This document shows, in pieces, positions 21,057 through 38,990 of a DNA stretch of 64,000 nt. The stretch comes from Glutamicibacter sp. JC586 (GTDB lineage Bacteria > Actinomycetota > Actinomycetes > Actinomycetales > Micrococcaceae). The stretch is taken from the NCBI RefSeq assembly GCF_009805585.1, contig NZ_VHIN01000005.1:248001-312000 (forward strand). Direction: 5' to 3'. Numbering within the stretch: position 1 is the first letter of the stretch; the number at the start of each line of letters is the position of its first letter. The position numbers were made by a program, and so were the translations under genes. The notes under the pieces are model-generated. The model saw only the letters and a list, made by a program, of their open reading frames with translations. It searched no databases and was not told the DNA's origin.

Positions 21057-21674
21057 ATGACTCCTGCACCGTTTCTCCTCGGCTTAACAACTGGGTTGTC
21101 GCTGATCGTTGCCATCGGCGCACAAAATGCCTTTGTGCTCCGTCAGGGAATTCGAAAAGAGCATGTTTTCGTCACTGCTACAGTCTGTGCACTATCCGAT
21201 GCTGTTCTCATCGGTGCGGGAGTTAACGGGATGGGCGTTCTAGTTGAGCGACTGCCCTGGCTGCTAACCATTGCTCGACTGGGTGGCTTCTTGTTCCTTG
21301 CCACCTACGCTGTATTCGCATTCCGCCGGTCTCTCAAACCTGACGCGCTCAAAGTTTCAGTATCAAACCGATCGGTCACGACCCTTTCTATTATTGGTAC
21401 AACACTGGCTTTGACGTGGCTCAATCCCCATGTCTATATCGACACGGTGCTATTACTCGGATCGGTGGCCGTAGCTCAAGGCCAAGGCGCTCCCTGGTTC
21501 GCCTTTGGCGCCATCCTTGCTAGCTTCATCTGGTTTTTCTTGCTTGCCTATGCGGCCCGACTACTCGCGCCACTATTCGCAAAGCCGAAAGCTTGGCAAG
21601 TCCTCGACTTCACCATCGGGATCCTCATGTTGCTATTCGCAACGTTGCTCATTTGGCCGATTTTCACCAAGTAA
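21057..21674 (+). CDS. lysE: LysE/ArgO-family basic amino acid exporter
   Basis: 205 residues, almost wholly hydrophobic with five to six membrane helices. It has the family opening FLLGLTTGLSLIVAIGAQNAFVLRQGIRKEH and the ALTWLNPHVYIDTVLLLGS motif. LysE proteins export L-lysine and L-arginine with proton or hydroxide coupling. Divergent from its regulator lysG. The 3' side runs into the DnaA-box cluster, with the first near-consensus box overlapping the stop codon; no hairpin terminator is seen after it. Confidence 0.95.
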   Translation: MTPAPFLLGLTTGLSLIVAIGAQNAFVLRQGIRKEHVFVTATVCALSDAVLIGAGVNGMGVLVERLPWLLTIARLGGFLFLATYAVFAFRRSLKPDALKVSVSNRSVTTLSIIGTTLALTWLNPHVYIDTVLLLGSVAVAQGQGAPWFAFGAILASFIWFFLLAYAARLLAPLFAKPKAWQVLDFTIGILMLLFATLLIWPIFTK

Positions 21675-22135
21675 TCCACAGCACCCCCGGGTTATCCACA
21701 CCCAGTGTGCACAACTCCCATCAACAGTTGTTCACAAACTTATCCACAAGTGGGGACAAGTTCGATGATACTACTGGCATAAAACTGTTTGCACTAGTCA
21801 AATTGCCTATTGGTGAATCAAATGACACGGTTGTAAGTTATTAACACTGTGGATTTAGGCTGTGGATAGTCGTGCAATGTGTGCTATTTGCAGCCAATCC
21901 TGCTAATCGGTTAAACTTTCGAACCTCAAGTTATTAACAAGCCGCCGGTTCGTATATGCGCTATCTACAGGGGTTGTTTAAAAGTTATCCACAACTGGGG
22001 ACAAGGTTGTGAGTATTGCTTAACTCCCCCGGAATATCCTTGGTTTCAAGGGCATCCACGCCTGTTAATATCTCCACAACCTCACAAGTTACATGGCTGT
22101 AAGTTATTAACAGTGTGGATAATCTGTGTGGATAA
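21672..22135. other. DnaA-box cluster in convergent intergenic region
   Basis: 481 bases between the 3' ends of lysE and the rhomboid gene. Five exact TTATCCACA boxes: 21692-21700 and 21740-21748, 21985-21993 (plus), 22114-22122 and 22127-22135 (minus). Single-mismatch boxes at 21672, 21706, 21728, 21751, 21861 and 21996. Two near-perfect duplicated units: TTATCCACAA-TGGGGACAAG at 21740 and 21985 (one base differs), and TGTAAGTTATTAACA-TGTGGAT at 21832 and 22098. AAGTTATTAACA occurs a third time at 21928. As both flanking genes end here, promoters do not explain it. Confidence 0.85.
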
Positions 22136-22155: not shown

Positions 22156-23013
22156 CTAGCCTACGGAGTATTTGACCGACTGCATAGCTAGATACACAGC
22201 GGTCAGGAGAATGACCGATAAAGCAGTCAACAAGACCAGCTGTATTCGCGAACGCTGTGGATTACTTCGAGGAATCATCACAATGCTCGCCGAGGCGATG
22301 ATGCCAGTGATCGCACCACCTAGGTGTCCCTGCCAAGAGATCCCCGAAACGACAAAGCCAAGCACGATGTTCAGTACCAGAATGATGCCCATCTGACGTA
22401 ACGCTTGCTTGTTAGAGCGGAAAACAACAAATGTTGCCAGGAAGAGGCCAGCCAGCGCTCCGGACGCACCTAATGTGGCGCTCAATGGCTCGCTGAGCAG
22501 TAATATGCCGAGGGATCCGCCGATAGCGCTGAGCAGATACAACCAAGCAAATCGCAACCGACCTAGACGAGGTTCGAGCAATGTACCGAAAATATAGATT
22601 CCGTACATGTTCATAGCCAAGTGCAGGAATGAACCCATTGAGTGAGCAAAAGCGCTGGTAATTAGACGCCATGGTTCATAGGCAGCGATCGCAGGGGCCA
22701 GAACCAACGAGTTGGTGAATCCCGGAATGATCCACTGCAACAGGTACACAAAGACGTTCAGTGCGATAACAATGTAGGTGACTACCGGTGCGCCGGCTCG
22801 CAGCCGTCCCCCGAATTCCGTCTTCTGCTGGGGAATTCGTCGGTTAGCTTCGGCCACACATTCCACGCACTGCACACCTACCGGAGCTGATACCTGACAT
22901 TGCGGACATACCGGGCGACCGCACCTGTTGCAGGAAACGTAAGCAACCGTGTCCGGATGACGATAGCATGTCGGAGCCACTTGGCTCTGAGGGTTGATCT
23001 GCCCGTAGGACAT
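22156..23013 (-). CDS. Rhomboid-family intramembrane serine protease
   Basis: 285 residues. The N-terminus is a zinc-ribbon/B-box-like module with paired cysteines (PTCYRHPDTVAYVSCNRCGRP, CPQCQV, GVQCVECV). Six membrane helices follow. Catalytic Ser lies in LGASGALAGL (about 184) and His in SWQGHLGGAI (about 232); HLAMNMYG in helix 2 is the conserved HxxxN motif. It cleaves membrane proteins within the bilayer; substrates are unknown. It lies downstream of ppiA on the same strand in the usual actinobacterial order. Confidence 0.94.
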   Translation of the reverse strand: MSYGQINPQSQVAPTCYRHPDTVAYVSCNRCGRPVCPQCQVSAPVGVQCVECVAEANRRIPQQKTEFGGRLRAGAPVVTYIVIALNVFVYLLQWIIPGFTNSLVLAPAIAAYEPWRLITSAFAHSMGSFLHLAMNMYGIYIFGTLLEPRLGRLRFAWLYLLSAIGGSLGILLLSEPLSATLGASGALAGLFLATFVVFRSNKQALRQMGIILVLNIVLGFVVSGISWQGHLGGAITGIIASASIVMIPRSNPQRSRIQLVLLTALSVILLTAVYLAMQSVKYSVG

Positions 23014-27918: not shown

Positions 27919-28506
27919 CTAGTCGTCGGTGAGGGTTACACCCACGCCACCGACCAGCGAAGCAGCAATGTTGTACAGCACCGCTCCCAAGGTGGAGATC
28001 ACCGAAATAACAACTACATTCACCACTGCGATGATCGTTGCGTAAGAGGCAACCTGACCCAACGACATGGACTGTCGCAGGTCGAAGCTTCCCTGAGCAA
28101 TAGCATCGCGGATCAGCTGGTTGAAGGCGTCGAAGGTACCCATCAGATCAAGCAATGCCCAAATACCTACGGACGCAACCACGGTGATCACACCGAAAGC
28201 TACCGAAAGTAGGAAGGCGAGCTTAAGCACCGAGAACGGTTCAACCTTGGAAACCAGCAGGCGAGCCTTGCGAGCCTTAGCCTTAGGTGCTGGGCGAACC
28301 AGGCGCTCCTGGGTGGTGGCGGGGCGCTGTTGGCCACCGGTAGGTCGTTGGCCGGCAGGACGAGCCTGACTGCCGGTTGGCCTTGCACCGCCAGCTGCTG
28401 GGCGATTACCGGTGGTGGTTGGCGCCGGACGCTTTACCTGGGCACCTCGCGGCGCTTCGCTCTTCGGGGCACTGCCGTTGGGGCGTGGCGTCGAGGGCGT
28501 GCTCAT
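27919..28506 (-). CDS. DUF3566 transmembrane protein
   Basis: 195 residues. The first 80 are a disordered Pro/Arg/Gly/Thr-rich segment; the DUF3566 domain (about 82-195) has two membrane helices (about 96-120 and 153-185) and the family signature [27 protein letters not shown]. The mycobacterial relative is Rv0007. Proposed roles are in envelope or division but unproven. Its ATG overlaps the gyrA stop by four bases, so it is translated together with gyrase, an association kept across actinobacteria without an explained reason. Confidence 0.93.
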
Positions 28507-31130
28507 GCGTTACCTCCGTTAGTGGTGTCATCGTCCTGGACGTCAGATTCGGTTTCCGGCGCGGTTGATGACTGATCGATCGTGTTTTCTGCGTCCAACG
28601 TTACGGCATCTTCCTCCAAGTTCTCTTCGAGCTGTGTCTCGGAGTTCTTGGCTACCGCAATAATAAAGTCCTTCTTATCCGGCTTCGCGAAGATCACACC
28701 CATGGTGTCTCGACCCTTAGCAGGAACCTGCGAGGCAGCGGAGCGAACAACCTTGCCACCGCTCATGACGACCAGGACTTCGTCGGTTTCATCAACGATC
28801 AAAGCGCCGACCAACTCGCCACGTTCCTCGTTTAGCTTGGCAACCTTAATGCCCAAGCCACCACGTGATTGAACACGGTATTCGGCAACGTCGGTACGCT
28901 TGGCGTAACCTTCGTTGGTCACCGTAAACACGAAGGAGTTCTCGCGGACCACATCGGCGGCCAGCAGCTCGTCCCCTTCGCGGAACTTCATACCGGTAAC
29001 ACCCGAAGTAGCGCGGCCCATCGGACGCAGCGCGGTATCGGTAGCGGTGAAGCGCACAGATTGACCCTTGCGCGAGACCAGCATCACATCATCGGATTCA
29101 CTGACCAGCTGTGCGGAGACCAGTTCATCATCATCACGGAGGTTGATCGCGATCACCCCGGCGGTGCGGTTAGTGTCGTAATCCTCCAGGCGCGTCTTCT
29201 TCACCAAACCGTTGCGGGTGGCCAACATCAGGTAGGCAGCATCCTGGTAGGTACGCAGATCCAGTACCTGGGCGATGTGTTCGTCTGGCTGGAAGGCCAT
29301 GACATTTGCCACGTGCTGACCCTTGGCATCACGACCGGCCTCGGCTAGCTCATAGCACTTGGTGCGGTACACGCGGCCATGGTTGGTGAAGAACAGCAGC
29401 CAGTTGTGGGTAGAAGTGACGAAGAAGTGCTCCACCACATCGTCCCCGCGAAGGTTTGCACCCTTGATACCCTTGCCACCGCGAGCCTGCGAGCGGTAGT
29501 TGTCGATGCGGGTGCGCTTAACGTAACCGCCGCGGGTGATGGTCACAACCATTTCTTCTTCTGGGATCAGGTCTTCGACGCTCATGTCGCCGTCGTAACC
29601 CATCAGAATCTTGGTGCGGCGATCATCCCCGTGCTTGTTGACGATCTCGCCCAGTTCTTCGGAGACGATCTCGCGCTGGCGCTCTGGGGAGGCGATGATT
29701 CCTTGGAATTCGGCGATCATCCGCTCGAGCTCTGCGTGGCGATCCTGAATCTTCTGGCGCTCCAAGGCGGCCAGACGACGTAGCTGCATATCCAGGATGG
29801 CGCGTGCCTGATCCTCATCGATATCCAGCAGTTCCATCAGACCATCGCGGGCTGCCTCGGTGGTAGCCGAGCGTCGAATCAGCGCAATGACCTCATCAAG
29901 AGCATCCAAGGCCTTGAGCAGACCACGCAGGATGTGAGCCTCTTCTTCGGCCTTCTTTAAGCGGAACTGGGTGCGTCGAACAATGACTTCGATCTGGTGG
30001 GTGACCCAGTGACGGATGAACCCATCCAGTGGCAAGGTGCGTGGCACCCCGTCAACGATGGCCAGCATATTGGCCGAGAAGTTGGTCTGCAGCTCGGTGT
30101 GCTTGTACAGATTGTTCAGCACAACCTTGGCCACGGCATCGCGCTTAAGTACGATCACCAGGCGCTGACCGGTACGGCCCGAGGTTTCATCGCGCATATC
30201 GGCAATGCCGGCAATCTTGCCATCGCGAACCAGCTCGGCGATTTTCACCGCGAGGTTATCCGGGTTGGCCATGTAGGGAAGTTCGGTGACTACCAGGCAG
30301 GTGCGTCCCTGAATTTCCTCCACATTCACTACCGCGCGCATGGTGATCGAACCACGTCCGGTGCGGTAGGCGTCGGCGATGCCCTTGGTGCCAAGGATCA
30401 TCGCGCCCGATGGGAAGTCCGGGCCCTTCACGCGCAGCATCAGTTCGGCGAGCAGCTCTTCGCGGGTTGCTTCTGGGTTCTGCAGATACCACTGCACACC
30501 GTCGGCGACTTCACGCAGGTTATGCGGTGGAATGTTGGTGGCCATACCCACGGCGATACCGGATGAGCCGTTGACCAAAAGGTTCGGGAAACGGGCCGGA
30601 AGAACCGTAGGTTCCTGGTTTTTACCGTCGTAGTTGTCCTGGAAATCAACGGTGTTTTCGTTGATGTCGCGGACCATTTCCATGGCCAGTGGGGCCATTT
30701 TGGTTTCGGTGTAACGCTGGGCGGCGGCGCCATCGTTACCCGGGGATCCAAAGTTACCCTGGCCAAGTGCCAGTGGGTAACGCATGACCCAGTCCTGGAT
30801 CAGGCGAACCAGCGCATCGTAAATCGCGGTGTCGCCGTGCGGGTGGTACTGACCCATGACTTCGCCGACCACGCGTGCGCACTTGTTGTAGGCGCGCTCG
30901 GGGCGGTAGCCACCGTCGTACATCGCGTACAGCACGCGGCGGTGCACTGGCTTCAGGCCATCGCGCACGTCCGGCAGTGCACGGCCAACAATAACTGCCA
31001 TGGCGTAGTCCAGGTAGGACCGCTGCATTTCGGTCTGCAGGTCGATCTGATCGATCCGCCCGCCTTCATGGATCGGTTCGATAACCTCGCCGTCCAGCGG
31101 TTCATCCTGTGGGGTTTGCTCGTCGCTCAA
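28503..31130 (-). CDS. gyrA: DNA gyrase subunit A
   Basis: 875 residues. Breakage-reunion domain (about 30-500) with catalytic tyrosine in [11 protein letters not shown], then six C-terminal beta-pinwheel blades with the GyrA box ([10 protein letters not shown], near 545), and an acidic tail. The quinolone-resistance region reads [15 protein letters not shown]; the position equal to E. coli Ser83 is Thr, a natural residue in several lineages and no proof of resistance. It wraps and passes DNA to introduce negative supercoils with GyrB. It lies 57 bases after gyrB and overlaps DUF3566. Confidence 0.98.
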
Positions 31131-31187: not shown

Positions 31188-33251
31188 TTAGATATCCAGG
31201 AAGCGCACGTCCTTGGCGTTCTGCTGAATGAAGTTACGGCGGGACTCCACGTCCTCACCCATCAGCACGGAGAAAACCTCATCCGCAGCGGCTGCATCAT
31301 CCATGGTGACCTGGCGCAGGGTGCGGAATTCTGGATCCATGGTGGTGTCCCACAATTCCGAGTAGTCCATCTCGCCCAGACCCTTGTAACGCTGGATTCC
31401 GTTGTCCTTTGGCAGGCGCTTGTTGGAGGCCTGTCCGGCCAGCAGTGCGTCGTCGCGTTCCTTATCGGAGAACACGTAGTCATGTGGCGCATTGGACCAC
31501 TTGATGCGGTATAGCGGGGGAGCAGCCAGGAAAACGTAGCCGTGCTCGATCAGCGGGCGCATGAAGCGGAAGATCAGGGTCAACAGCAAGGTGGTGATGT
31601 GCTGACCGTCCACGTCAGCATCGGCCATCAGCACGATCTTGTGATAACGCAGCTTGGCCATGTCGAATTCTTCGCCGATGCCGGTGCCGAAGGCGGTGAT
31701 CATCGCCTGAACTTCGGCATTGCCCAACGCACGATCCAACCGGGCGCGCTCCACGTTCAGGATCTTGCCACGCAGCGGCAGGATGGCCTGGGTGTGTGGG
31801 TCACGTCCGCGCTTGGCCGAGCCTCCTGCGGAGTCACCCTCCACGATGAACACTTCGCACTCGGCAGGGTTCTTCGAGGAGCAGTCCGAGAGCTTACCTG
31901 GCATGCCGAAGGATTCCATCGGCGACTTACGCCGGGCGTTATCGCGGGCCTTGCGGGCCGCCATACGTGCCTGGGAAGCTAGCTGTGCCTTGCGGATAAT
32001 GTCGCGGGCAACGTTGGGGTTGCGCTCGAACCAGTCGCTAAGTTCCTCGTTGACTACACCCTGGACAAAGCCACGGGCCATCGAGTTGCCCAGCTTGGTT
32101 TTGGTCTGGCCTTCGAACTGTGGTTCGGAGAGCTTGACCGAAATGACTGCGGTCAGACCTTCACGAGCGTCTTCACCGGTGAGGTTGTCATCCTTTTCAC
32201 GCAGGATCTTGTTATCCCGGGCGTAACGGTTGAGCAGGCCGGTCAACGCTGCGCGGAAGCCTTCTTCGTGGGTACCACCCTCATGGGTGTTGATGGTGTT
32301 CGCGTAGGTGTGCACGGATTCGGCGTAGGCGCTGGTCCACTGCATCGCGATTTCCAGGCTGATGCCACGAGCTGAATCCTCAGATTCGAAGGCGATAACC
32401 TCTTCGTGAACCAGTTCTACCTTTTTGGCGGCGTTCAGGTGCTTGACGTAGTCCAGCAGGCCGTTTTTGTAGAGATAGTCCACGGTACGTGGCTTGACTA
32501 CCTGGTTTTCGATCTCTTCGTCGACTTCAGCCTCAGGCTCGGCATTCACCGGGGTGCGCTCATCGGTCAGGGTGATACGCAGGCCCTTGTTCAAGAAGGC
32601 CATCTGCTGGAAGCGAGCACGCAGGGTCTCAAAGTCGAACTCGACGGTCTCGAAGATTTCCGGATCTGGGTAGAAGGTTTGGGTGGTACCGGTCTTCTCG
32701 GTCTCTTCCCCCTTGGCCAGCGGGCTGGTGGTGACACCGCCATTGCTGAAGCCGATACGCCAGGCGTTGCCCTGACGGCGAACGATCGTATCTACCTTGC
32801 GCGAGAGCGCGTTAACTACGGAAATACCCACACCGTGCAGACCACCGGACACGGCATAACCGCCACCGCCGAACTTACCGCCAGCGTGCAGGATGGTCAT
32901 GACTACCTCAACGGTAGGCTTGCCCTCGGTCGGGTGGACATCCACCGGAATGCCACGGCCGTTGTCCTCACAACGTACGCCGCCGTCGGCCTGCAGGGTG
33001 ACGTTGATGGTGTCGCAGTAACCCGCTAATGCTTCATCGACGGAGTTGTCGACTACTTCATAAACCAAGTGGTGAAGGCCGCGAGGGCCGGTGGAACCGA
33101 TGTACATGCCAGGGCGTTTACGTACCGCTTCGAGTCCTTCGAGGACGGTAATATCCTGGGCGCCATAGGTATGTTCGACTTTGGAAGTCATCGATTCCGC
33201 GGGAACCTGGCTTTCTGCCGGATCCTGCGGTGAAGCATTTTCAGTAGACAC
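31188..33251 (-). CDS. gyrB: DNA gyrase subunit B
   Basis: 687 residues from GTG 33251. GHKL ATPase domain with [26 protein letters not shown] and [19 protein letters not shown]; transducer; TOPRIM domain with [14 protein letters not shown] and [13 protein letters not shown]-terminal segment [17 protein letters not shown]. It supplies ATP-driven strand passage for GyrA. The 282-base gap before it holds its own promoter, so gyrB-gyrA-DUF3566 probably form a separate transcription unit from recF; supercoiling-responsive control is usual for gyrase but not visible here. Confidence 0.98.
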
Positions 33252-35304: not shown

Positions 35305-36432
35305 TTAGTTCGAGTTTGGCAAACGTACCGGCATCACAAGGTAGCGGTACTGATCCTGATCGGCTTCATCCAACTTCTTCTGGCCAGTGAGCATCGCTGG
35401 CTTGGGAGCACTGGTGAAGGAGAATCGCACAAAATCGGTGGTGAACGAGTTCAATCCTTCAGACAAGAAGGTTGGATTGAACGCTACAACGATGTCTTCG
35501 CCACGCAATGAAGCAACGATAGCTTCTTCAGCTTGTGCGTCCTCGCCGGTACCAGCATCCAAGGTTAATTGACCATCAGTGAACGCCATACGAACCGGGG
35601 TGTTACGTTCTGCAACAACCGATACACGACGTACAGCTTCCATAAGTTCACTAGTGCGAACCGTGGCATGGATTGGCGTATCACTTGGGAATAGCGAACG
35701 GATCTTTGGGTACTCACCGTTGATTAGCAATGAGGTGGTGCGGCGGTTGGAGCTTTCAAAGCCCACCATGTCACGATTTTCGCTGATCGCAAGCTTCAGT
35801 TCTCCAGCACCAGAGAGAGTCTTAGCAACTTCGCTCAGGGTCTTGGCTTTGATCAAGAAGGAAGTGGAAATCTCCGAAGTGTTTGGAGTCCAGTTCAGTT
35901 CGCGTAGTGCCAAACGATAGCGGTCAGTTGCCAGGAAAGTGATGAGGTCGTTTTCAATCTCAACCTTGATGCCGGTGAGCACTGGAAGAGTGTCATCCTT
36001 CGAAGCAGCAACAATCACCTGTGAAACTGCAGCCGAGAATGCCTGGCCGTCGATTGTGCCAGCGATAGCTGGAAGTTCTGGAAGCGATGGGTATTCTTCG
36101 ACTGGCATGGTAGCCAAGTGGAAGCGTGAGCGACCACAAGTCAAAGAGATCTTGGTGCCATCGGTCTCAAGAGTCACTGTTGAGTTTGGTAGCGATCGGG
36201 TGATCTCGGCTAAAAGCTTGCCTGATACCAGAATTGAGCCTTGCTCAGAGATGTCCGCAGGAATCTCGATATGCGAGGAAATCTCATAATCAAATCCCTC
36301 GAGGCGAACTAGGCCTTCATGGGTAGTGATCAGGATGCCAGCTAGTACTGGTGAGGGTGGGCGTTGTGCCAAGGACCGGGCGGTCCAGGATACGGCTTCT
36401 GCCAATACATCCTTTTCAACGCTGAACTTCAC
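35305..36432 (-). CDS. dnaN: DNA polymerase III beta sliding clamp
   Basis: 375 residues from GTG 36432. It has the three DnaN domains; the opening MKFSVEKDVLAEAVSWTARSL, the middle NTPVRMAFTDGQLTLDA and the C-terminal clamp-loader/peptide pocket end YRYLVMPVRLP are typical. The ring holds the polymerase on DNA. Transcribed away from oriC, 468 bases from dnaA. Confidence 0.98.
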   Translation of the reverse strand: MKFSVEKDVLAEAVSWTARSLAQRPPSPVLAGILITTHEGLVRLEGFDYEISSHIEIPADISEQGSILVSGKLLAEITRSLPNSTVTLETDGTKISLTCGRSRFHLATMPVEEYPSLPELPAIAGTIDGQAFSAAVSQVIVAASKDDTLPVLTGIKVEIENDLITFLATDRYRLALRELNWTPNTSEISTSFLIKAKTLSEVAKTLSGAGELKLAISENRDMVGFESSNRRTTSLLINGEYPKIRSLFPSDTPIHATVRTSELMEAVRRVSVVAERNTPVRMAFTDGQLTLDAGTGEDAQAEEAIVASLRGEDIVVAFNPTFLSEGLNSFTTDFVRFSFTSAPKPAMLTGQKKLDEADQDQYRYLVMPVRLPNSN

Positions 36433-36900
36433 GAAAAATCCGCCTTTCGGAACCCTTTGAATCTTAAGTCAGGCCAAGAAGGTTGTTCCCTCGCCAAGTT
36501 CTTAAGCATAGAGCAGGTAGTTGCACGTTCTCTCCATCTTAATCTTGCCACGTGCTGTTGGTGCAAAGTCATCATTACCTCTGGCTTGTTGATGAGCGCT
36601 GCGAGAAAAAGATTTGAACAGGTTTGGCTCGAGGTACAGGAGTGGACTCGTTATTTGGATGAATAAGTGTTTAAAGGAGAAGTGTTAATAACCCTTGTGG
36701 ATACTGTGGACAACCCGCAAACACCTAGAAATCTCGGCGATTGTGCATGTGAACAATCTGTGGTTGAAATTGACACTCAGTTCCAGAGGTCTGTTGAAAC
36801 TCAGTTCCACCATTTTTAACGTCCACACGGGTACCCACCTTTATCCGCAGGTAGTCACCAGACCATCCACAGATTTATCCACACCTGTGATTTCTTGGGA
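36433..36900. other. Probable oriC (dnaA-dnaN intergenic)
   Basis: 468 bases between dnaA and dnaN, the usual actinobacterial origin. DnaA boxes: exact TGTGGACAA at 36705-36713 and TTATCCACA at 36875-36883; near-consensus TGTGGATAC at 36696, TTATCCGCA at 36841 and CCATCCACA at 36863. GTTAATAAC at 36684-36692 matches the TTATTAAC motif of the 21.7-22.1 kb cluster. The dnaN promoter should also be here. Gyrase, recF and dnaN run leftward and rpmH-parB rightward from this zone, as expected for genes leading away from the origin. Confidence 0.8.
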
Positions 36901-38337
36901 TTAATGCTCCCGCTGACTCTGCTTGATACGGTTCGTTAGCTCTGTGACTTGGTTAAAGATGGCCCGGCGTTCAGCCATCAGCTCACGAATCTTACGATCA
37001 GCGTGAATCACGGTGGTGTGGTCACGTCCACCAAGCTCAGCGCCAATCTTTGGCAACGACATGTCAGTAAGCTCACGCAAAAGGTACATAGCGATCTGTC
37101 GGGCGGTGACCAATGTGCGCGTCCGAGACTTGCTATTAAGCTCATCGATAGTCAGACCGAAGTATTCAGCAGTCTGTTTGATGATGGTGGATGGGGTAAT
37201 CTCTTGCGCACCATCCTCACTGATTAGATCCTTGAGCACGGTTTCCGCTAGAGCCAAGTCAACTATTTGGTTGTTCAGCGAGGCGAAGGCCGTGACTCGG
37301 ATCAGTGCTCCCTCGAGCTCACGAATGTTGGTGGAGATGCGTGAAGCGATGTACTCCATGACATCTCCAGGAGCTGAAAGGTTCTCAGCGTCGGCTTTCT
37401 TGCGCAGGATCGCGATACGAGTTTCCAGCTCAGGTGGCTGAATATCAGTGAGCAGGCCCCATTCGAAGCGAGAACGCATGCGATCTTCGAAGCCTTGCAG
37501 CTGTTTGGGAGGCAGGTCAGAAGTAATCACAACCTGCTTGTTGTGATTATGCAGCGCGTTGAAAGTGTGGAAGAACTCTTCCTGCGTGGCGTCCTTGTTG
37601 GCCAAGAACTGGATATCGTCAATCAACAGAATGTCGACGTTGCGGTACGTCTGTTTGAAGCTGGCACCCTCATCATCACGGATGGAATTAATGAAGTCGT
37701 TGGTGAACTCTTCCGAATTCACGTAACGCACGCGAATGCCTTTGTATAGGTGACGAGCGTAGTGACCAATAGCATGAAGCAGGTGGGTCTTACCTAGCCC
37801 GGAATCACCATAAATGAACAACGGGTTGTAGGCCTTGGCAGGTGCTTCGGCCACTGCCACCGCTGCAGCATGGGCGAAACGGTTCGAAGAGCCAATGACA
37901 AAGGTGTCAAAAATGTATTTAGGGTTTAGCCGGCCAAACTCTTGCGAGTTCGATGGGGGAGTCGGCTGAGGCGCTGGCTGTGGCCGAGGACCTGGAGTCT
38001 CAGTGACCGAAGGAGTCGCAGGAGCCGGAGCGGATGTTTCTGGCGCTTCCTCTTCGAGTTCGTCAGAAAGAGAAAGATCGACGCTGACAGCGCAGCGGAT
38101 ATCGTCCTGAAAAACTTCACGTAGAGCCTCATCTAGAGGTTCACGAAGTTGGGTCTGCAGGATATCGCGCGTTAAGTCGTTCGGAACGGCAACGAGCAAC
38201 GTCGTTCCGATCAGCCCCTGTGGCTTAGCCAACGATACGAAGGCACGGTAGCGGGCTTTAACGCGATCGTCGTCCTCGATCTTGCGAATCACCTGGCGCC
38301 AGGAGCTACCAATGCTATTGGTTTCGTCGCTGCTCAC
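36901..38337 (-). CDS. dnaA: Chromosomal replication initiator DnaA
   Basis: 478 residues from GTG 38337. Domain I (1-90), a Pro/Thr-rich domain II (about 95-135), AAA+ domain III with Walker A GDSGLGKTHLLHAIG and Walker B ILLIDDIQFLANKD, and domain IV with the DnaA-box reading motif GGRDHTTVIHADRKI near the C-terminus. It binds TTATCCACA boxes and melts the origin. Boxes occur on both sides of the gene and in the distant 21.7-22.1 kb cluster. Confidence 0.98.
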   Translation of the reverse strand: MSSDETNSIGSSWRQVIRKIEDDDRVKARYRAFVSLAKPQGLIGTTLLVAVPNDLTRDILQTQLREPLDEALREVFQDDIRCAVSVDLSLSDELEEEAPETSAPAPATPSVTETPGPRPQPAPQPTPPSNSQEFGRLNPKYIFDTFVIGSSNRFAHAAAVAVAEAPAKAYNPLFIYGDSGLGKTHLLHAIGHYARHLYKGIRVRYVNSEEFTNDFINSIRDDEGASFKQTYRNVDILLIDDIQFLANKDATQEEFFHTFNALHNHNKQVVITSDLPPKQLQGFEDRMRSRFEWGLLTDIQPPELETRIAILRKKADAENLSAPGDVMEYIASRISTNIRELEGALIRVTAFASLNNQIVDLALAETVLKDLISEDGAQEITPSTIIKQTAEYFGLTIDELNSKSRTRTLVTARQIAMYLLRELTDMSLPKIGAELGGRDHTTVIHADRKIRELMAERRAIFNQVTELTNRIKQSQREH

Positions 38338-38852
38338 TAAGGGCGCCCCACTCTCGATAAAAATGCAATCTTGGTCACACGGATCTTGTTTCCAAGGCCC
38401 GAAAACGCCGTTTTTTGGACGACGTCACCATTGATTCTATCTACCATCCACAAACTTATGCACAGCCAAGTGGAAAAAGTTGAGCTCCAAGCTGTGGAAA
38501 AGGGGTTTTCCCTTGATAATAAGCGTTTTAAGCTCCGAGATGACTTGCGCTTTCGTGAGAATATGTGAACTTTCTTTCGTTGTACACGGAAGTAATCCAC
38601 AAGTTTGAGGTAGATTATTCACAGGCCAACACTCGAAGCGAGTCGTGTTGGTGGAGTTAACGCGCCAATTTGACCTGTGGCGAACATTTTTCTATTGTTA
38701 TTTAGTCCTGTGTGCTTCATTTGCGACTTGCTCATTTTCGAAGAGCCCGCGAAATACGCGCACATTTTATAAGTTACGAGCGTCAACTTAGTGGTCTTGG
38801 TTAGATAGTCCACGGGTAGTGCGCATCATCTACATCGTCTTGGAGTGTCACC
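38338..38852. other. dnaA-rpmH divergent promoter region with degenerate DnaA boxes
   Basis: 515 bases holding the divergent promoters of dnaA and rpmH. Imperfect DnaA boxes: CCATCCACA at 38444, TTATGCACA at 38456, TAATCCACA at 38593, TTATTCACA at 38615, allowing DnaA autoregulation. Markedly AT-rich toward 38680-38790. No coding frame is convincing. Confidence 0.7.
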
Positions 38853-38990
38853 GTGAGCAAGCGGACTTTTCAGCCAAACAACCGTCGTCGTTCGAAGAAG
38901 CACGGTTTCCGTCTTCGTATGCGTACCCGTGCAGGTCGTGCCATCCTTTCGGCACGTCGCGGCAAGGGCCGTACCGAACTCTCAGCATAA
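38853..38990 (+). CDS. rpmH: 50S ribosomal protein bL34
   Basis: 45 residues from GTG 38853. The sequence [28 protein letters not shown] and the ending [14 protein letters not shown] are typical for bL34, very basic and of normal length. A TTGGAG site lies 8 bases before the GTG. It is followed by rnpA, the universal pair beside the bacterial origin. Confidence 0.98.

Follow-up and report, generated by a model that had tools for sequence, protein, structure and literature searches.

In the 64-kb window (the whole stretch of DNA that was analyzed), a lysE-type exporter gene (21057..21674, plus strand) and a rhomboid-family protease gene (22156..23013, minus strand; its 3' end is a conserved landmark) converge, and both terminate at a non-coding segment (21672..22135) which carries a dense cluster of DnaA boxes outside the canonical origin. 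This convergence had been claimed in an earlier note on this DNA and was confirmed here. Five exact copies of TTATCCACA were found within the 464 bases, as the same note had reported, at 21692, 21740, and 21985 on the plus strand and at 22114 and 22127 on the minus strand; the whole genome (26 contigs, 3,523,497 bases) has 23 exact copies, five of which are packed into 444 bp of the cluster. Outside the cluster, the window contains one further exact TTATCCACA, at 36875, and in 100 shuffled versions of the window the mean number of exact copies was 0.19 and none reached 6. When boxes with at most one mismatch to TTATCCACA/TTGTCCACA are considered, 11 are present in the cluster (five exact and six with one mismatch), and the figure of at least six one-mismatch boxes given earlier holds for this wider consensus but not for TTATCCACA alone, for which there are two (21672 and 21861).

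On the plus strand, an exact box TTATCCACA (21692..21700), which has at most one mismatch in 17 of the 18 genomes of the genus and is exact (TTRTCCACA) in 13 of them, is followed by a near-consensus box TTGTTCACA (21728..21736; at most one mismatch to TTRTCCACA in 18/18 genomes) and by an exact box at 21740..21748 (at most one mismatch in all 18 genomes, exact in 17) which belongs to the first copy of the repeat TTATCCACAA-TGGGGACAAG. The box of the second copy (21985..21993, plus strand) is exact in all 18 genomes. The minus strand carries two copies of a module: copy 1 (21832..21869) reads, on that strand, as boxes CTATCCACA and AAATCCACA and then GTGTTAATAACTTACA, and copy 2 (22086..22135) as TTATCCACA-CAGA-TTATCCACA-C-TGTTAATAACTTACA-N4-TGTAACTT, with its boxes at 22114-22122 and 22127-22135. 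Three copies of AAGTTATTAACA are present in the cluster, the third of which (21928..21939) has no adjoining box. The internal duplication noticed earlier was recovered as well, in the form of a 50-nt pair (78% identity) with a spacing of 266 and a 25-nt pair (92%) with a spacing of 245. Within the module, an inverted repeat, TTACA-N4-TGTAA, adjoins GTTAATAAC (window 21832-22112), as it does in matches to the family pattern described below; its form suggests binding by a dimeric protein that is not DnaA.

Conservation of the boxes and of their place

Cluster DNA was detected in all 18 genomes of the genus, including the one studied here. In their alignment, box columns are 93% identical to our genome compared with 61% for the other columns, and the 93% was never reached when the box mask was shifted circularly (0 of 507 shifts). 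Whole modules, namely TTGTTCACA...TTATCCACA-nn-TGGGGA, TGTAAGTTATTAACA-n-TGTGGAT, TGTTTAAAAGTTATCCACA, and GTTATTAACA-n-TGTGGATAA-n4-TGTGGATA, have been kept, with some exceptions for each of them, and the spacers have diverged. The shuffles, the genome-wide box count, and the circular-shift test rule out a chance origin of the cluster. A mobile or phage origin was also rejected, since a blastn search (words of 11, E up to 0.01) of 50,697 phage and 72,556 plasmid records gave no match to the cluster.

At the family level, the composite module (box, GTTAATAAC, and inverted repeat) was searched as the pattern TTATCCACANTGTNNNTAACTNACANNNNTGT with at most three mismatches and was found in 142 of 197 genomes (27 of 32 genera), and the reversed control pattern gave no match in the 197 genomes. 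Among the matches listed, all 135 whose position could be compared are located 3' of the rhomboid gene at a distance of at most 3 kb (median 220 bp); this check covered 89 of the 142 genomes, those for which module matches and the rhomboid gene were both listed, and left out 14 with listed module matches for which the rhomboid gene was absent from the listing and 39 with matches outside the listing. Among 80 named loci around gyrA that were compared, a box score of at least 4 in the 2.6 kb that follow the 3' end of the rhomboid gene was observed in 19 of the 26 scored loci assigned to Micrococcaceae and in four of five Curtobacterium loci. The neighbor on the lysE side varies among genera (no lysE was detected in L123-L131), and the cluster stays in most of these loci. 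Box conservation at the lysE/rhomboid junction in relatives, one of the points on which the earlier note had let its proposal stand or fall, is thus found in the genus and in most of the family, and both the boxes and the position of the cluster have been kept by selection.

In the genus that includes Psychromicrobium silvestre, one exact box is present ~100-180 bp past the rhomboid gene in all three genomes (G126, G140, and G042). The cluster is reduced and dispersed in G140 and G042, which have a box pair ~1.1-1.3 kb past this gene, and has moved in G126, where a six-box group with one module is located at 28.4-28.6 kb from dnaA, 12 kb past the rhomboid gene, at which one exact box is left. 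In genus g25, the cluster of G068 is split by ~2.6 kb (C1:374472 and 377095, one module per side) and G041 has two modules 0.2 kb apart; a split of 2.5-2.6 kb was observed in four genomes of genus g20 among those listed, and the cluster of G105 is split too. In G163, the cluster adjoins an inverted rhomboid gene. In G070, gyrA and ppiA are separated by ~10 kb of additional DNA, and the cluster (7 exact boxes in 500 bp) lies 26.7 kb from dnaA; it has stayed with the rhomboid gene, implying that it follows the gene end and not the distance from oriC. The genera represent a natural experiment, the cluster being dense in some of them and split, moved, or reduced in others.

Outside the family, the 3' side of the rhomboid gene has few boxes (0 to 3 exact ones; 28 loci, class level). 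However, all four genomes sampled from one distant genus (7.9-9.7 Mb, probably Streptomyces) have three exact boxes at the same place; the order and orientation of the three are constant, they fit into the ~230 bp that follow the 3' end of the rhomboid gene, and their flanks are conserved. GTTAWTAAC and the box-GTTAWTAAC-inverted repeat module were not seen in the four sequences of this genus that were aligned, and it therefore seems that the place is older than the family and that the module is an elaboration. A related form, box-GGG-TTATTAACA-CTGGGGATAA, is present at the same place in several Microbacteriaceae loci, and the Microbacteriaceae-type pattern box-GNN-TTATTAACA-N-TGGGGATAA matched in one of 119 genomes of the order, that match being without an intact TTATTAACA.

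The neighboring oriC and the GTTAWTAAC element

The minus-strand genes gyrA (28503-31130), gyrB (31188-33251), dnaN (35305-36432), and dnaA (36901-38337) are located in the same window, and the dnaA-dnaN gap (36433..36900) is a canonical oriC with tandem boxes, a GGG spacer, and TTATTAACAC (36680-36713). The gap contains one exact TTATCCACA (36875), one TTGTCCACA (36705), and five boxes with at most one mismatch; the two exact boxes previously counted there are obtained if TTGTCCACA is included but not for TTATCCACA alone. The earlier observation that TTATTAAC adjoins DnaA boxes in this gap was reproduced. In this architecture, tandem boxes are followed by a 3-4-nt spacer (AGGG/GGGG in the genus and other letters in some genera) and by TTATTAACAC, after which CTACTAA or CTACGAA triplets are found in the gaps of other genera; the order of tandem boxes, spacer, and triplets matches a description in passages of PMC8287927, and the origin of Kocuria rhizophila has been placed in the dnaA-dnaN gap in print (a passage of PMC12500396). 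The canonical oriC was found in all eight genus members aligned and in 10 other loci listed (of 80 named), with Psychromicrobium (L131) among them, and its presence in every gap inspected gives no sign of its loss. This agrees with the earlier view that the cluster is not simply the main origin. The cluster and oriC are ~15 kb apart (~14.3 kb when measured to the closer end of the dnaA-dnaN gap), a distance by which a classical bipartite origin is ruled out: in a bipartite oriC, as described in passages of PMC4285127, the spacer gene between the two box clusters is usually dnaA and measures up to about 2 kb.

Upstream of dnaA (window 38338-38860), four one-mismatch boxes (38456, 38493, 38593, and 38615) were observed, which would fit dnaA autoregulation. 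A further box cluster was observed upstream of dnaB, outside the window (contig C20 of our genome, ~338.7-339.3 kb, at the end of L061). In G000, G015, and G004, which have sufficient left flank, this dnaB-side cluster spans 1.2 kb, contains 9-14 boxes that are exact (1-2 of them) or have one mismatch, and is located 48-63 kb from dnaA; dnaB was identified by a profile match of its C-terminal part in our genome, whereas visual inspection was used for its start and for the other two genomes. Together, the dnaB-side and rhomboid-end clusters suggest that there are several clusters near oriC.

Of the six copies of GTTATTAACA in the genome studied here, three belong to the cluster and one to the dnaA-dnaN gap, and the other two are elsewhere; the reversed control pattern occurs five times. 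GTTAWTAAC was also counted in 80 named loci plus 19 genome regions (99 sequences, with at least one organism, Psychromicrobium silvestre, in both sets). The dnaA-dnaN gaps (48 kb) contain 42 copies and the DNA 3' of the rhomboid gene (199 kb) contains 57, compared with 6 in the remaining 3.19 Mb. The element is not universal, as fewer than half of the gaps (42/94) and of the rhomboid ends (29/76) have it. It may serve to unwind the duplex or else be bound by a second protein that acts at both oriC and the cluster; in Escherichia coli, IHF acts at both oriC and datA, according to a passage of PMC5742627. The duplex stability of the cluster is as low as that of the oriC gap. A rule for unwinding, taken from passages of PMC8287927, combines a box, a spacer of up to 16, and at least three NTN triplets. 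This combination is found at 4 of the 11 cluster boxes, in runs of exactly three (background rates of 0.18 for the window and 0.28 for the cluster itself), and at one of five boxes in our own dnaA-dnaN gap, likewise with a run of three; the unwinding triplets at the cluster are not above a level that could be due to chance.

Strand skew and rival explanations

It is possible that the cluster is a second, perhaps dominant, initiation site, with the dnaA-dnaN oriC as its partner or alternative. DnaA would then assemble on the modules, open the AT-rich GTTAWTAAC tracts, and load the helicase, and forks from the cluster side would copy dnaN-recF-gyrB-gyrA head-on to their transcription. The near confinement of GTTAWTAAC to oriC gaps and rhomboid ends and the low duplex stability of the cluster are consistent with such a site, as is part of the strand skew. 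The skew set comprised 19 genomes with at least 80 kb around dnaA, 14 with a dense cluster (score of at least 4; seven of them from one genus) and 5 others (three genera); G117 was excluded as its region lacks dnaA. The minimum of cumulative GC skew was located 16-21 kb from dnaA in 10 of the 14 dense-cluster genomes (the exceptions being G000 at 9.1 kb, G006 at 10.4 kb, G105 at 11.8 kb, and G070 at the stretch edge) and 1.8-2.6 kb from dnaA in the three genomes of the Psychromicrobium genus; the distances in G163 and G068 were 4.1 kb and 2.3 kb. However, the minimum coincides with a gene-orientation switch and is off the cluster in six genomes, lying 2-4 kb past it in G172, G156, and G047 and 5-7 kb short of it in G000, G006, and G105. 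Considering that genes converge on the cluster and that a C-rich coding strand alone yields a minimum there, we dropped the minimum as proof of an origin. The GC-skew mapping suggested in the earlier note thus returned a distant minimum in most dense-cluster genomes but is confounded by gene orientation.

For the dnaN-gyrA interval, skew was expressed on a scale from lagging (0) to leading (1) based on orthologous genes and within-genome controls, and the plus-strand genes had values of -1.86 to 0.39 in the 14 dense-cluster genomes and 0.28 to 0.77 in the 5 others. With correction for codon bias (C-ending), pooled fourfold-site skew was 0.04 (bootstrap -0.14 to 0.17) in the former and 0.48 (0.41 to 0.56), only half way to leading, in the latter. 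A comparison by genus (8 vs 3) gave p = 0.006 in a one-sided rank test, and the orthologue-wise difference of the interval from its flanks gave p = 0.04; the interval value of G126 was -0.02 with orthologues. The interval in the 14 dense-cluster genomes has a lagging-type skew, as if it were replicated from the cluster side, which is a lead and not a proof, because gene orientation and codon bias confound such evidence for initiation. The 5 others, moreover, are not free of boxes, the cluster being split in G068, moved in G126, reduced in G140 and G042, and placed at the inverted rhomboid gene in G163. The dnaA-referenced test over 69 loci was weak (rho -0.20, p 0.11); the test without dnaA reference gave rho -0.32 and p 0.007 on loci that are related by descent. 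Microbacteriaceae with few boxes have the same negative interval slope, the box-plus-trio combination occurs only in its minimal form (runs of three NTN, background 0.18), and the canonical oriC is intact in the same lineages. We therefore consider a second initiation site possible but doubtful. That many Micrococcaceae initiate at two places 15 kb apart, with the cluster dominant in dense-cluster lineages and dnaN, recF, and gyrase copied head-on, appears unlikely.

By analogy, the cluster might also be a DARS-type reactivating site, at which ADP-DnaA would oligomerize and lose ADP to give ATP-DnaA, promoting the next initiation. The ordered boxes in both orientations would suit this, but we know of no actinobacterial helpers for such a site and regard it as quite improbable. 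DARS sites have a core of three boxes, according to a passage of PMC5742627. Alternatively, the boxes could play no role in replication and instead act in transcription, by terminating or controlling that of lysE or of the rhomboid gene. One terminator-like stem was found inside the cluster and two promoter-like sites in the 800 bp scanned, but shuffled sequences yield 0.7 and 1.2 of these, respectively, so that no signal is clearly above the shuffles. As both genes terminate at the cluster, promoter control does not explain it, in line with the earlier argument; the lysE-side neighbor also changes between genera and the cluster mostly stays, and a role in transcription is hardly credible.

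A candidate regulatory DnaA site and known systems

DnaA-box clusters in Streptomyces coelicolor and Bacillus subtilis, analogous to datA, repress untimely initiation, as described in passages of PMC5742627 and PMC10950094. Considering this precedent, the intact oriC, the deep conservation of place, and the dnaB-side cluster, the best reading is that the cluster is an oriC-proximal regulatory DnaA assembly site, similar to the S. coelicolor and B. subtilis clusters or to E. coli datA, to which we assign a probability of roughly 0.58. The analysis shows the boxes and that they are conserved, at a fixed place and alongside an intact oriC; that the site binds DnaA, sequesters it, and affects timing is inferred. 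DnaA is predicted to bind the cluster boxes, and an ordered complex would form on the two box-GTTAATAAC modules. Because the cluster is 15 kb from oriC, it would be duplicated almost at once after initiation, and the doubled site would sequester DnaA, by drawing it off or by altering its nucleotide state. Re-initiation may be held back by the duplicated cluster either way, through pure titration or with added ATP hydrolysis.

Several observations count against a regulatory site. Pure titration needs box number alone, yet the module, its spacing, and the inverted repeat have been kept; the reduced, dispersed, or moved cluster in the three genomes of the Psychromicrobium genus implies that the dense form is dispensable; and the presence of half of the GTTATTAACA copies of the genome in the cluster and one more in oriC suggests an origin-type function. 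In short, the shared GTTAWTAAC and the strand skew lean to initiation, whereas regulation is favored by the precedent, by the intactness of oriC, and by boxes at the same position in distant genomes. The earlier note had proposed a titrating or reactivating site or an auxiliary origin, a view that is partly supported, by the conserved boxes and by a cluster that is not simply the main origin. The locus appears to be a DnaA site that most of a family has retained at a single gene junction, and it contains a rare element otherwise almost restricted to oriC. We found no account of a DnaA site at the lysE/rhomboid junction in the literature searched, and to our knowledge little is known about the restraint of DnaA after initiation outside E. 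coli, B. subtilis, and S. coelicolor. The cluster provides a precise deletion target in bacteria that are harmless and could show whether regulatory DnaA sites and origins interconvert.

Like the canonical actinobacterial oriC (e.g., that of Kocuria rhizophila), the cluster has DnaA boxes, DNA of low stability, and the rare GTTAWTAAC, but it is located 15 kb from dnaA-dnaN and its triplets do not exceed a possible chance level. E. coli datA is, like the site here, a non-coding box cluster outside oriC, and works with an IHF site through IHF-dependent hydrolysis of DnaA-ATP (a passage of PMC5742627). E. coli DARS1 and DARS2 consist of ordered box groups, as are present at the site here. In B. 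subtilis, DnaA-box clusters proximal to oriC were reportedly described by Okumura et al. in 2012. These clusters are near oriC, as is the site here, and restrain untimely initiation according to passages of two reviews (PMC5742627; PMC10950094). The S. coelicolor clusters share with our site an actinomycete host, a position proximal to oriC, and a non-coding context. Smulczyk-Krawczyszyn et al. are said to have described them in 2006 as DnaA-box clusters outside oriC, and they are named D78, H69, and H24. The site here differs from them in having more boxes and the box-GTTAWTAAC-inverted repeat module, which was not seen in the four distant sequences aligned. Considering that three boxes are present 3' of the rhomboid gene in 4/4 genomes of the probable Streptomyces genus, one of the S. 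coelicolor clusters, presumably H69, may be the same locus as the cluster described here.
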